Origin: Bacilli bacterium
GTDB taxonomy: Bacteria > Bacillota_I > Bacilli_A > ML615J-28 > CAG-313
Assembly: GCA_017398545.1 (NCBI GenBank)
Contig: JAFQFT010000026.1
Span: 1 to 64,000, forward strand
Direction of reading: 5' to 3'
DNA: 64,000 bases
The notes under the pieces were generated by a model. That model was not told the origin of the DNA. It did no database searches and worked only from the letters and a program-made list of their open reading frames with translations. Below, piece after piece: positions 2,291 through 52,134 of the stretch; positions within the stretch are counted from its first letter, which is position 1; every line of letters begins with the position of its first letter. Both the position numbers and the translations under genes were made by a program.

Positions 2291-2513
2291 AATAATTCAA
2301 AAAAGTTTTTATATATTTATTACCATAGCTCATACCCTTAATAATTCTATTGTAAAAACATTTACAGTAGGTTTTAAATTTCTACTTTTACCACTATTTA
2401 AGTAATGAATAATTTACATCAAATTTAATAATTTCTACAATATGACTTTAATAACTTTTACTTCTATAATACTATATTATAGAACGCACTTTAATAATAA
2501 CACATATAAAAAC

Positions 2514-2540
2514 AAAAAAGAACTCGATGAGTTCTTTTTT
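2514..2540. terminator. bidirectional rho-independent terminator
   Basis: A 12-bp perfect stem (AAAAAAGAACTC / GAGTTCTTTTTT, loop GAT) has T-runs on both sides. It can end the hslO-peptidase transcript and, on the other strand, the secreted protein/peptide operon. The surrounding non-coding stretch 2291-2628 also holds a small hairpin at 2463-2483 and a 12-bp stem at 2552-2563/2587-2598. I see no gene in it. Confidence 0.85.
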
Positions 2541-2628
2541 AATTTGAGAAATATCAAAAATTAGTGTGATATTGTTTTTATCGCTTTAATTTTTGATAGA
2601 AACTTAATTTGATTTGAAATACAAATAA

Positions 2629-2763
2629 TTAATTCCAAAATTTATCATAATCAATATTGGTATCACCTGGAAGTGATTCGCCAAAAGTATTTGATGCAGT
2701 TAAAATATTTTCAGAATCAAATTCGATAATTTCAATAATTGGATTTTCATATTGTTTATTCAT
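2629..2763 (-). CDS. YxxP micro-peptide A (44 aa), unknown function
   Basis: This short gene encodes MNKQYENPIIEIIEFDSEN and a further 25 residues ending DYDKFWN. GGAGG lies 7 bases before the ATG, a strong ribosome site. It starts 14 bases after the stop of the secreted protein at 2778-4262, in the same operon and so under the same riboswitch. Its N-terminal half (YENPIIEIIEF) matches three other peptides in this window (46858-46986, 47624-47752, 52006-52134). Its C-terminal half differs: it lacks the PWG(D/E)D motif. There are no cysteines and no signal peptide. The YxxP plus hydrophobic pattern resembles RiPP leader peptides; function is unknown. Confidence 0.75.
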   Translation of the reverse strand: MNKQYENPIIEIIEFDSENILTASNTFGESLPGDTNIDYDKFWN

Positions 2764-2777
2764 TCAATCTACCTCCA

Positions 2778-4262
2778 TTATCTTCTTGCTGCTTCTAATA
2801 AACCTTGCATTAAATCTTTATCTAGACCACTATTATTTTCTGGATCTTTTGCAAGTTTTACATAATTTTCTAAAATTGTTATAACAGAATATGTTGTGGG
2901 TTGCATTAAAATTTTAGTATCACCTAATTTAGCAAAACATGTAGCTGTAAATATTTGTTCATAACTACTATTTGGAATTTTGTTAATTACAATTGAATAT
3001 TGATAATACTCTTTTTCATCAATTACTACAGAAGCAATACTTTCAACGATAAAGTCTTTATCATTCTCACCTGAGACAAAATTGATTCCGAAGCTATATT
3101 CTTCTGCTAGTAAATCATCATAAATATCCTTCGGTATTAAACATCCAAATCTTAAACCCACACCATTTTCTTTAATTGAATATTCTATTTCAGTACCTGA
3201 ACTTTCAGTATATTTATAAATGCAAACAGGCGTTTGTGGTTTGTCTGGAGCATAACAAGCGAATAATTTGTTAGTAGCATTATATTGAAGATAATTACGA
3301 GTATTTGTTCCTTGAGCTAAAATCGTTGCTGTTCCATCTTCATCAATTGTAACTTTCCAACTTGAATTTGCAGTTAAATTTGTTTCTGTTTTTAAATAAT
3401 TACTTGAACTTGATGCTGCGTATAAATAATTTTGTGTACTAGTTTCGAATCCAAAAGAGCCAGAAACATTTCCCTCAGTTAAAGAAATGATTTCAACATT
3501 GTTTTCATCAATTTCAAGTTGATCACCTTCATCATTTTTTGTAATTGAACTTTGTCCTCTATTATTATTATTTTGTGTTGTTGATAAAGCATACTCATAG
3601 TCTTTTGCAGCAATAATAATTTGATCACCAACTTTTAAACTACTAACATCTTTAACAAGTTCCCATGATACAATTGAAGAAGATGTAACTTCTGCATATG
3701 TGTAACTTACATTCAAGCTGCTAACTGTTTCAAGCTTTTGAAAATTTTTAATATATTCAGGAACATTAGGTTCATCACTAGGAACTTCATATGTTACTGT
3801 TATTGCATCAATTCTGACTTGAGCTGTAAATTTAGAAACTACAGTTATTTCATTTGATTGTCCATCTAACGAATAAGTAACTTTATCAGAAGATACTGTT
3901 GCATTATTACCAATTGAATTTTTTAATGCTGTAGCATAAGAACTAGAGTTACAATCAAAAACTATTTCGTTAATATTACATTCATGGGAAATTACTAAAC
4001 TGGAATTAGCATAAAATCTAGCTGGTTTTGCATAATCACCAACATTAGTTGTAGACGAAGCCTTATTATTAGTTACAGTAATTCCATTTTCTTCCCAAAT
4101 TTGTTCAGAAGTAGAATATGAAGTTCTTTTTGATTTATCATCAAAAGTAATTGTTGCAGTGTCTTCATCTGCAGCTTTAACTTTACTTGTAACACTTAAT
4201 GTGAATACTGCAATAAATGCAACCATTAAAACTAATAAAGATTTTTTGAATAAGTTTTTCAT
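2778..4262 (-). CDS. secreted multi-domain protein under guanine-riboswitch control
   Basis: The 494-residue protein has a Sec signal peptide (lysines, then a hydrophobic stretch to about residue 27, cleavage likely after VKA at 30). A beta-sandwich-like domain follows (about 33-155, with FDDKSKRTSYST and GDYAKPARFYANSS). A second domain (about 185-350, W-x-LVKDVSSLKVGDQIII) and a C-terminal module (about 355-494, VGLRFGCLIP ... YSFGINFVSG) complete it. From memory, the first two domain types occur in secreted nucleases and carbohydrate-active proteins of gut bacteria; I see no catalytic domain here. The C-terminal module is shared with the island's secreted proteins. AGAGAGG precedes the ATG. 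There is no LPxTG anchor or lipobox, so it is probably released. Confidence 0.85.
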   Translation of the reverse strand: MKNLFKKSLLVLMVAFIAVFTLSVTSKVKAADEDTATITFDDKSKRTSYSTSEQIWEENGITVTNNKASSTTNVGDYAKPARFYANSSLVISHECNINEIVFDCNSSSYATALKNSIGNNATVSSDKVTYSLDGQSNEITVVSKFTAQVRIDAITVTYEVPSDEPNVPEYIKNFQKLETVSSLNVSYTYAEVTSSSIVSWELVKDVSSLKVGDQIIIAAKDYEYALSTTQNNNNRGQSSITKNDEGDQLEIDENNVEIISLTEGNVSGSFGFETSTQNYLYAASSSSNYLKTETNLTANSSWKVTIDEDGTATILAQGTNTRNYLQYNATNKLFACYAPDKPQTPVCIYKYTESSGTEIEYSIKENGVGLRFGCLIPKDIYDDLLAEEYSFGINFVSGENDKDFIVESIASVVIDEKEYYQYSIVINKIPNSSYEQIFTATCFAKLGDTKILMQPTTYSVITILENYVKLAKDPENNSGLDKDLMQGLLEAARR

Positions 4263-4307
4263 AATTTTTATTCCTCTCTATATATATTTTTAATTTTTTA
4301 TCCATTT

Positions 4308-4458
4308 TATAATAAAAAATAAAAGGCATAGATTACTACGCCTTATATTTTTTTGTAAATTATTAAAAGGAAGAAAATTACAAAAAATATAAGCCATAGT
4401 GTGACATATTCGGAGTCACGTAGAAACATCTTAACCATAATTTAAGATTATATAGCCT
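4308..4458 (-). promoter_or_regulatory. guanine-type purine riboswitch with transcription-termination platform
   Basis: On the minus strand the aptamer (4458-4391) has the purine-riboswitch architecture. An 8-bp P1 (AGGCTATA with TATGGCTT, two G-U pairs) flanks TAATC, a P2 hairpin (CTTAA...TTAAG) around ATTATGG, the GTTTCTAC junction, a P3 hairpin (GTGAC...GTCAC) and a closing CACTATGG. The residue before TATG is C, the specificity base of guanine/hypoxanthine aptamers (U in adenine ones). Downstream, 4344-4323 forms a 9-bp terminator stem followed by a T-rich tract. The P1 3' strand and linker can pair almost perfectly with the segment leading into the terminator, giving an antiterminator. 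A TATACT -10 at 4474-4469 puts the start just before P1. Ligand should switch the operon off. Confidence 0.88.
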
Positions 4459-4530
4459 TTACAAACATAGTATATCATTTTTTGTAATTTATTGCTACAA
4501 TATAGCATTATTTAAAATATGAAAATGTTT

Positions 4531-5085
4531 TCAAATAATTTTATCTAAGTGATTTTGTAATTTTTCTTTAGGTAAACCCATAATTGTATAGTAATCTCCG
4601 CTTATTTTTTGCACAAAATTTGCGTGTTCATCTTGAATTCCATAAGCTCCAGCTTTATCAAATGGTTTATCAGTGTCTAAATATTTTTTGATATCTTCAT
4701 TAGTCATTTTATTAAATGTAACATCTGCAATATCAACAAATGTATCAATGTAATTACCTTTAATTAAAGATACCCCTGTCATAACTTGATGAGTATTATC
4801 TTGTAATAGTGTAAGCATTCTAACAGCATCGTTATAATCTTTTGGTTTACCAAGAATTTCATCATTTATTACTACAATTGTATCTGATCCAATTACCAAA
4901 TCATTAGGATGATCTTTTGCGATACTACTTGCTTTTTGAAAAGCAAGACTTTTTACAACTTCTTTCGGAGAAAGTTGTTTTTCTATTTTTTCCTCTTCTT
5001 TTGAAGGAATAACTATATGTTTAATATTCATTAAATTTAAAATTTCCGTTCTTCTTGGAGATTTAGAAGCTAAGATTATATTCAT
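4531..5085 (-). CDS. maf: Maf-family nucleoside triphosphate pyrophosphatase
   Basis: Maf proteins hydrolyse non-canonical or modified NTPs (house-cleaning). The N-terminal LASKSPRR motif, the SDTIV segment and GKPKD loop are all present, and the 184-residue length is normal. I start it at the ATG at 5085, with GAGGT 9 bases upstream. An in-frame ATG at 5100 lies inside that ribosome site and is unlikely. It lies on the same strand as the riboswitch but upstream of it, so it is not controlled by it. Confidence 0.93.
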   Translation of the reverse strand: MNIILASKSPRRTEILNLMNIKHIVIPSKEEEKIEKQLSPKEVVKSLAFQKASSIAKDHPNDLVIGSDTIVVINDEILGKPKDYNDAVRMLTLLQDNTHQVMTGVSLIKGNYIDTFVDIADVTFNKMTNEDIKKYLDTDKPFDKAGAYGIQDEHANFVQKISGDYYTIMGLPKEKLQNHLDKII

Positions 5086-5115
5086 TATATTATACCTCAT
5101 TTTTTAACTATTATT

Positions 5116-46857: not shown

Positions 46858-46986
46858 CTACTCGAAGAATTCTGATTCATCATCATCTGCCCATGGGAAG
46901 TTAATAACAATACTTCCTCCAACAGTATGAATATCAGATTCATATTTAATAATTTCGATAGAAGGAGTTTCATAATTTTTAATCAT
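46858..46986 (-). CDS. YxxP micro-peptide B (42 aa)
   Basis: It encodes MIKNYETPSIEIIKYESDI and, after THTVGG-like residues, SIVINFPWADDDESEFFE. GGAGA lies upstream of the ATG. Its stop (TAG at 46860-46858) is the first three bases of the partner's TAGGAGG ribosome site, so the two genes are translationally coupled with a 14-base gap, exactly as in copy C. Nearly identical in DNA to copy C at 47624. There is no signal peptide and no Cys. Function is unknown; see the findings. Confidence 0.8.
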   Translation of the reverse strand: MIKNYETPSIEIIKYESDIHTVGGSIVINFPWADDDESEFFE

Positions 46987-47623: not shown

Positions 47624-47752
47624 ATGATTAAAAATTATGAAACTCCTTCTATCGAGATTATTGAATATGAAACTGAAATCCAAACAGGTCCAAGTGTTAT
47701 TATTGATTATCCTTGGGGTGATGATAATGATGGATCAGGTTTCTTTAGATAG
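47624..47752 (+). CDS. YxxP micro-peptide C (42 aa)
   Basis: It encodes MIKNYETPSIEIIEYETEI, then QTGPSVIIDYPWGDDNDGSG and FFR. GGAGAG lies before the ATG. The stop TAG (47750-47752) is part of the partner's TAGGAGG ribosome site, 14 bases before the next ATG. The first 13 residues are identical to copy B, while the last 20 have diverged but keep the S-V/I-I-x-Y/F-PW-G/A-D-D pattern. Unknown function. Confidence 0.8.
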   Translation: MIKNYETPSIEIIEYETEIQTGPSVIIDYPWGDDNDGSGFFR

Positions 47753-50906: not shown

Positions 50907-52025
50907 TTATGAATTATTTGTTAAATATGTTTCTTTTATTTCATTATATGATGAGTTATATATATCACTATAATAATATTCATATTCTAAATTTTCATTT
51001 ATAAACTTTAAATATGCTACTGCATATATATCTTGATCTATAGCGTATTCTGGAATGTTGTTTATTGTTACCGCAAAACTATCTTCTTTATTAGCTTCTT
51101 GTATAAAAGAATTAGGTGTATTAATATTTAAATCATCTGTCTTTTTATTTAAAAATATAAAGCCTAAGATATAATTATCTCTATTAGTTAACATTGTTGA
51201 TGTTTTAAATCTTATACCATCATATTCTACATTATATGAGATTTCCATATTATTAATAATTTCATCATAATATATATCTAATAAATTAATTGATATAGTT
51301 TTTGTGTAATATACATTATTTGTGTTATTATCTTTTGCATATAAACACGCTTTAAATGATATATCTAAATGATATATTGGGATATCTTTAATTGATACTC
51401 TAAATTCATTATTATCATTTAATGCTTCTAATTTTACGATTTCAGTCTCAAAATGGTCGTTTTTCGCGTTTTCTAAATTAAGTTCACTAATTAACTGGTT
51501 CTTTGAGAAAATTAAACCATATTCAGCATTATTATTAATATATGTAGCAGCTGTAAAAGTTAATAATTCATTTTTATATGAAATGTCTTTTAAGATTATT
51601 TCACTTAATCCTGCAAGTTTTGCATAGATATAATCTATTTTATTGCTGTAAACAACATCTTTTTCCGTTACTGCAAAACTTCTTACATACATATTATAAT
51701 AATTATATTCTTCAGGCACACTTAAAGTAATTATACTATGCTCTTTTAAATTTCCTTTTATTATATATTTAACTAGAGTTTCATTTTCTATTGTTAGTTC
51801 ACAATCAATATTAGATATAATTATTCCATATTCTAATGTCTCTATATTTAAATGATTCTCTACTTTAAATGTCACAGTGTTGTTTATAACATTTGTATTA
51901 ATATCTGTTATTTCAATATAAGGATTTGTCTCAGCAAAAACTGATGTATTTAGTAATCCTATACTTAAAGAAAGGATTACCACAATAATTATTTTTTTAA
52001 AAATCTTATTCTTCAAAAAATACAT
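50907..52025 (-). CDS. secreted protein with three copies of the shared module, paired with micro-peptide D
   Basis: The 372-residue protein has a Sec signal peptide (cleavage probably after VFA at about 31). The rest is made of three related modules of about 105-115 residues: LEYGIIISNIDCEL ... VRSFAVTEKDVVYSNKI; AEYGLIFSKNQL ... FKACLYAKDNNT; YDGIRFKTSTML ... ILGFIFLNKK ... VAYLKF. This is the module seen once in the other three secreted proteins. I start at the ATG at 52025 (GGGGAGA, 8 bases upstream), overlapping the peptide gene by 20 bases. There is no cell-wall anchor. Confidence 0.8.
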   Translation of the reverse strand: MYFLKNKIFKKIIIVVILSLSIGLLNTSVFAETNPYIEITDINTNVINNTVTFKVENHLNIETLEYGIIISNIDCELTIENETLVKYIIKGNLKEHSIITLSVPEEYNYYNMYVRSFAVTEKDVVYSNKIDYIYAKLAGLSEIILKDISYKNELLTFTAATYINNNAEYGLIFSKNQLISELNLENAKNDHFETEIVKLEALNDNNEFRVSIKDIPIYHLDISFKACLYAKDNNTNNVYYTKTISINLLDIYYDEIINNMEISYNVEYDGIRFKTSTMLTNRDNYILGFIFLNKKTDDLNINTPNSFIQEANKEDSFAVTINNIPEYAIDQDIYAVAYLKFINENLEYEYYYSDIYNSSYNEIKETYLTNNS

Positions 52026-52134
52026 TATTATCTTCTCCCCACGGATATTCAACTACAATACTTGAAGTTAACATTTTAATTGGTTCATCAAAATTTATAA
52101 TTTCAAATTTTGGTAATTCATACTCTTTTTTCAT
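52006..52134 (-). CDS. YxxP micro-peptide D (42 aa)
   Basis: It encodes MKKEYELPKFEIINFDEPI, then KMLTSSIVVEYPWGEDNNVF and FEE. GGGGGA lies just before the ATG. It overlaps the next gene by 20 bases, and the partner's ribosome site lies inside this gene, so translation is coupled. It shares YExPxxEII and S-I-V-V-E-Y-P-W-G-E-D with copies B and C. Unknown function. Confidence 0.78.
   Translation of the reverse strand: MKKEYELPKFEIINFDEPIKMLTSSIVVEYPWGEDNNVFFEE

Follow-up and report, generated by a model that had tools for sequence, protein, structure and literature searches.

Purine riboswitches are textbook metabolic controls. At the locus described here, one of them is conserved before the gene for a fast-changing surface protein in gut Bacilli. 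The window, a 64,000-nt stretch of the genome designated G000, had originally been predicted to carry a guanine-type riboswitch controlling a secreted protein and a 44-residue peptide, both serving purine or nucleic-acid acquisition when guanine is scarce. We examined this prediction computationally. If the control proposed below is real, purine supply determines surface properties. The features of the locus are as follows.

4531..5100, (-): maf, the upstream neighbor, a separate unit and conserved flank (PF02545, E 4.6e-58)
4469..4477, (-): extended -10 promoter element TGATATACT, just 5' of the aptamer, read from the sequence
4377..4475, (-): guanine-I type purine riboswitch aptamer (RF00167), covariance-model match, C74 at 4399
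4336..4399, (-): predicted antiterminator, 4399-4378 paired with 4358-4336, from ViennaRNA minimum free energy folds of truncated and full-length leaders from the three species
4323..4344, (-): intrinsic terminator AAGGCGTAG-TAAT-CTATGCCTT followed by a T-rich tail, kept in three species
4270..4279, (-): ribosome-binding site AGAGAGGAAT of the secreted-protein gene, read from the sequence
2778..4262, (-): Sec-secreted 494-aa protein, with an N-terminal signal-type hydrophobic stretch (residues ~1-30)
2629..2763, (-): 44-aa peptide MNKQYENPIIEIIEF...FWN of the YxxPxIExI family, with ribosome-binding site GGAGGTA at 2776-2770
2513..2541, (-): operon-closing intrinsic terminator, downstream of the 44-aa open reading frame (ORF)

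A guanine-I aptamer is the only Rfam match in the window

A search of all Rfam families against the 64-kb window returned a single match, the purine riboswitch aptamer at 4475-4377 on the minus strand, which covers the RF00167 model at full length (1-102) and scores 59.8 bits (E 8.1e-8), above the Rfam gathering threshold of 37 bits for this family. The guanine-type architecture that had been read from the letters (P1, P2, P3, the junction, and a C before UAUG) was thus borne out by the covariance-model comparison proposed with it. P1 is formed by 4458-4451 and 4398-4391, and P2 and P3 are present as first described. J1/2 starts with U22; J2/3 is GUUUCUAC and keeps U51 as well as U47, which is also a guanine-I ligand contact; and J3/1 is AC, with C74 (4399) lying directly 5' of UAUG. 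All four guanine-I ligand contacts (U22, U47, U51, and C74) are kept in the RF00167 alignment. Guanine-I contacts have been described as including U22, U51, and C74 (PMC9295807). Sequence and predicted structure together confirm the element as a guanine-I riboswitch, and its ligand is presumably guanine or hypoxanthine. Copies in the same genus score alike (L050, 59.7 bits; L054, 53.7 bits). The window's own genome contains two RF00167 matches, and at least one match was found in 75 of the 100 genomes searched (own genome plus relatives).

The leader is predicted to act as a transcriptional OFF switch

The antiterminator overlaps both P1 and the 5' arm of the terminator, so that the leader has the overlapping expression platform that is a feature of the RF00167 class, and the terminator and antiterminator of the original prediction could both be placed (4344-4323 and 4399-4378/4358-4336, respectively). 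Three terminator-like hairpins with a T-tail were found in the region versus 0.5 expected. According to ViennaRNA, the antiterminator fold and the aptamer-plus-terminator fold are nearly equal in energy in G000 (-35.8 versus -35.6 kcal/mol) and similarly placed in the congener G004 (-38.2 versus -37.8 kcal/mol), whereas the congener G003 favors the antiterminator (-33.4 versus -25.4 kcal/mol); these are equilibrium comparisons that exclude cotranscriptional kinetics. The ligand-free ensemble is strongly antiterminator, as an OFF switch would require, with pair probabilities of at most 0.05 for P1 and at most 0.06 for P1 and the terminator taken together. The leader has transcriptional OFF-switch architecture, from which we infer the direction of control. 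It shares with the Bacillus subtilis xpt-type guanine-I riboswitch the three-way junction, the loop motifs, the four ligand contacts, and the P1-antiterminator-terminator OFF layout.

The antiterminator loop TTTTCTTCCTTTTAATAA (4377-4354, minus strand) is apparently unpaired and is identical in all three species. Two other candidate elements in the leader were rejected. An upstream ORF overlapping the leader (YVTLWLIFFVIFFLLIIYK, 4438-4343, with counterparts in L050 and L054) has no Shine-Dalgarno site, starts within P2, lacks an ATG in G003, and is shifted in frame in G000 by a 2-nt indel. Pairing of the loop with the ribosome-binding site (CUUCCU with AGGAA) is lost in G003.

The leader is conserved, and the protein behind it is not

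A leader-pattern scan of GTDB r220 contigs found only SVBG01000004 (SIG222) and JAGBDV010000001 (RGIG9028, from water deer rectum), which we take as G004 and G003, respectively. In both congeners the same leader is flanked by maf on one side and, on the other, by the gene for a secreted protein, behind which a 41- to 46-aa peptide is encoded. The three leaders show 85% identity over 237 columns covering the -10 element, aptamer, antiterminator, and terminator, and TGATATAAT occupies the same -10 position in G004 and G003. Such retention in two further genomes of the genus is not due to chance. The assemblies of G003 and G004 come from metagenomes, and the three genomes are of a single genus, so that the independent observations are few. 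G000 and G004 can form all 28 ligand-state pairs; G003 can form 26 of them, having a C-C mismatch in P1 and G-A in place of the last terminator pair. Given these pair defects, the G003 copy may be weaker.

On the minus strand of the window, the riboswitch is followed by the 494-aa protein gene (4262-2778), the 44-aa ORF (2763-2629), and the closing terminator (2541-2513), and no gene lies between the leader terminator and the start codon at 4262. That the first downstream gene encodes a Sec-secreted protein was therefore correctly predicted (494 aa, signal-type N terminus). The predicted OFF control of both products is likewise well supported, the leader being kept in all three species and directly followed by the gene.

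The original prediction also proposed looking in related genomes for the same riboswitch before homologues of the secreted protein. The riboswitch was there, but the homology largely was not. The G000 and G004 proteins are alike only in their first 66 residues, the signal-peptide region (48%), and the mature G004 protein is unrelated and of different architecture; the G000 and G003 proteins are 25% identical overall; and those of G003 and G004 show no significant similarity to each other. The maf orthologues at the same place, in contrast, are 92% (G004) and 77% (G003) identical to the window copy. Judged by these alignments, the constant part of the locus is the switch, and the protein behind it appears to be exchanged. 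The contrast between the leader and the poorly conserved protein argues that selection keeps the switch before this transcription unit.

Purine aptamers of relatives mostly precede purine genes

As read from the sequences, the genes behind the 30 best-scoring aptamers of relatives are nearly all purE, guaA, or purL-like genes or permease genes of the NCS2/AzgA type. Two aptamers break this pattern, one standing before an ABC-transporter gene and the other before a gene for an FAD-dependent dehydrogenase, and none of the 30 has a secreted protein as its first target. Canonical purine riboswitches of the genus and family share aptamer family and lineage with the window element and differ from it in locus and targets: within the genus, those of G001 (C118) and G002 (C5) precede NCS2 permeases, and the third aptamer of G003 (C16) precedes an xpt-type gene with a BMP lipoprotein gene behind it, as does that of G011 (C36, xpt-BMP). 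G004, which is 97% complete, has no match to PF00860 (NCS2/AzgA permease) or PF02608 (BMP lipoprotein), and in G000 we saw one PF00860 permease, without an aptamer, and no BMP gene. Neither genome thus shows a BMP gene or a switch-controlled permease. This survey suggests that, with the exception of G003, purine aptamers in this subclade no longer serve known purine-transport genes. Control of purine genes is usual for RF00167 without defining it, and the window operon departs from it: its genes encode a secreted protein of the binding type, together with a small peptide, rather than functions in purine transport, synthesis, or salvage. In the lists that it covered, a literature search found no purine riboswitch ahead of a secreted or surface protein.

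A second RF00167 aptamer lies before a gene for a YgjV-type membrane protein in G000 (C48, L002:1501-1598), G004 (C1, L055:3429-3526), and G003 (C10, L053:5860-5765). The gene matches PF10688 in G004 and has a GNAT-like extension in G000 and G004. In these two genomes the 3' strand of P1 forms the 5' arm of a terminator, and in G003 the ribosome-binding site is paired in the default fold, a layout that predicts ON control, transcriptional in G000 and G004 and translational in G003. Since C74 is kept, these would be ON guanine switches, which is unusual for the guanine class.

The 494-aa protein has predicted binding folds

No Pfam or NCBIfam family matched the 494-aa protein above cut-off, and profile searches of PDB sequences with this protein and with the peptide gave nothing useful. 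An AlphaFold2 model built from a 14-row alignment (mean pLDDT, 73.8; residues 33-160 and 201-350 mostly >90) suggests a beta-sandwich at residues ~33-159, a beta-trefoil at about 195-357, and a C-terminal domain at ~356-494, the last being poorly modeled. Foldseek matched the beta-trefoil at a target TM score of about 0.73, with lectin- and fascin-type matches. The two confident domains, sandwich and trefoil, match binding and lectin folds, and no enzyme domain was found in the model. Residues 33-160 and about 195-357 recur in large surface proteins of the family, and Ig-like domains, InlB repeats, and BspA-type LRRs are found in related peptide/protein pairs of the genus. The G003 protein shares the C-terminal domain (356-494), as does a secreted endonuclease I of 783 aa in G004 (PF04231, 3.5e-37); this endonuclease also has a peptide of the YxxPxIExI family upstream. 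The folds of the 494-aa protein suggest that it acts at the surface as a binding protein, most likely for a polymer or a glycan.

A 1,149-aa paralogue with the same N-terminal domain has a sub-threshold OB-fold match. Its neighbors in the stretches L065:1810-8523 and L062:3-4586 include two genes that read as DHH phosphoesterases, one that reads as SurE, and, in G004, a gene for a staphylococcal-nuclease-type protein.

The peptide resembles a RiPP precursor

The peptide family has the consensus YxxPxIExI...(D/E)xIxT(A/S) and is present in 35 of 296 genomes of the class Bacilli. Its gene lies beside that of a large secreted protein in almost every examined locus, usually at 0 to 20 bp or overlapping; exceptions include L179, with two tandem peptides and no large secreted neighbor, and L176 and L194, in which the peptide is not resolved. 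PF14907 (NTP_transf_5) occurs in 32 of the 35 peptide-bearing genomes versus 19 of the 261 others (Fisher P = 3e-26, kinship ignored). The NTP_transf_5 gene directly precedes the peptide in several loci and adjoins genes for PqqD (PF05402; G001, G017, G022, G026, G035, G111, G131, and others), a signal-peptidase-like protein, and, in G026, a radical SAM protein. Genes of the NTP_transf_5/PqqD kind accompany lasso-type RiPP clusters (PMC7533575, PMC5067487). The window peptide further resembles a paeninodin-like lasso precursor in being short, in carrying the leader motif Y-x-x-P-x-I near its N terminus (alignments A1 and A5), and in having a Thr about 14 residues after it, which is invariant in the eight-sequence alignment A1. 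It differs in that its gene stands beside a surface-protein gene and in that, in both G000 and G004, the NTP_transf_5 gene has no PqqD gene nearby and sits among polysaccharide-type genes. The family's place beside secreted proteins and its co-occurrence with NTP_transf_5 and PqqD mark the peptide as RiPP-precursor-like. With no PqqD gene nearby in G000 and G004, we treat its modification as a lead only.

The riboswitch had been expected to give this family its first functional link. It is not the main such link, as only three of the examined peptide-bearing loci (in the genus and G017) carry it; no other scanned pair has an Rfam riboswitch (L145 and distant loci lay outside the scan), and what the family shares is adjacency to secreted proteins and co-occurrence with NTP_transf_5 and PqqD. 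A peptide/surface-protein module tied to these genes is widespread across Bacilli families and unexplained, and the switch makes the system testable.

Possible roles of the riboswitch-controlled operon

The reading that we consider probable is that an operon of two genes, one for a Sec-secreted, noncatalytic, binding-type (lectin- or adhesin-like) surface protein and one for a RiPP-precursor-like 44-aa peptide, is controlled by a transcriptional OFF riboswitch that senses guanine. Riboswitch control of such a pair, an atypical target, is very likely, and the three related gut bacteria probably tie a surface protein to guanine supply. Transcription would start just 5' of the aptamer. Binding of guanine or hypoxanthine would keep P1 stable and let the terminator at 4344-4323 form; at low levels of the purine base, the long antiterminator would take up the 3' strand of P1 and RNA polymerase would read into both genes. 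The cell might thus respond to purine shortage by displaying a protein that binds food or host polymers, glycans, or other cells. A constant switch with an exchanged protein behind it would make the locus an expression site that is gated by guanine and serves a variable surface protein. We offer more tentatively, as possible rather than probable, the extension that guanine status gates an exchangeable surface-display site behind maf, with the switch setting surface identity and a modified peptide and not metabolism.

The predicted role in acquiring purines or nucleic acids, with derepression under guanine shortage, has some appeal given that most riboswitch targets handle the ligand, as the 30 best-scoring aptamers of relatives, all but two of them before purine genes, illustrate. 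G004, lacking an NCS2/AzgA permease and a BMP lipoprotein, might depend on another purine source, and the sub-threshold OB-fold match of the paralogue and its staphylococcal-nuclease-type neighbor in G004 point the same way. The endonuclease I that ends in the shared C-terminal domain and has a same-family peptide beside it is the only link of the 494-aa protein to nucleic acids, an indirect one, and the reason that acquisition keeps some weight. Nevertheless, Pfam and NCBIfam searches with the riboswitch-controlled proteins of the three species returned neither a nuclease or nucleotidase domain nor a transport domain. The 494-aa protein has no recognized catalytic domain of a secreted nuclease or nucleotidase, having binding- or lectin-type folds instead; G004 has a protein of different architecture in its place; and domains of these kinds are also found on amidase, LRR, and InlB-repeat proteins, which makes them general surface-protein modules. 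Acquisition is therefore not supported, and we find it unlikely. It is less likely still that the aptamer binds guanine but is a relic, the operon having been inserted behind a former purine-gene switch so that control has no adaptive meaning: the canonical loci elsewhere in the genus (NCS2 permeases in G001 and G002, xpt-BMP in G003) and the P1 mismatch in G003 would fit, yet the leader identity and the retention of aptamer, antiterminator, and terminator in three species despite protein turnover argue for a maintained function. Odd gene associations have flagged variant guanine-riboswitch classes (PMC9295807), and a shift to another purine-like ligand (e.g., 2'-deoxyguanosine, xanthine, or a signaling purine) could explain the association here. 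Known xanthine-II and guanine-II variants, however, alter U51 or carry insertions in J2/3 and J3/1, whereas the window aptamer has neither insertion and keeps all four contacts; on these unchanged pocket bases we rejected an altered ligand class, and such a shift seems very improbable.

Additional peptide loci

A rule that the peptide gene lies on the side of the IRFG-type domain fits many pairs and breaks at L138. Three more pairs of a peptide and a secreted protein occur in the window: 46858-46986 (-)/44510-46843 (-), 47624-47752 (+)/47767-50187 (+), and 52006-52134 (-)/50907-52025 (-). The first two are divergent, similar copies in which the peptide gene lies 14 bp 5' of a gene for a protein with an IRTDGNNGLRW-type N-terminal domain. 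Near such loci, a second peptide and two lipoprotein-like ORFs share a C-terminal motif, GWLPWL, GWLPWV, or DWLPWI (L050:262-396 [-], L054:3706-3888 [-], and L138:1446-2165 [-]). In G004 (C3, C4, and C7), loci L141 to L146 encode five to six nearly identical 38- to 39-aa peptides, directly before secreted proteins in all but one case (L141, 477-bp gap), and both of these secreted proteins that were scanned by Pfam have BspA-type leucine-rich repeats.
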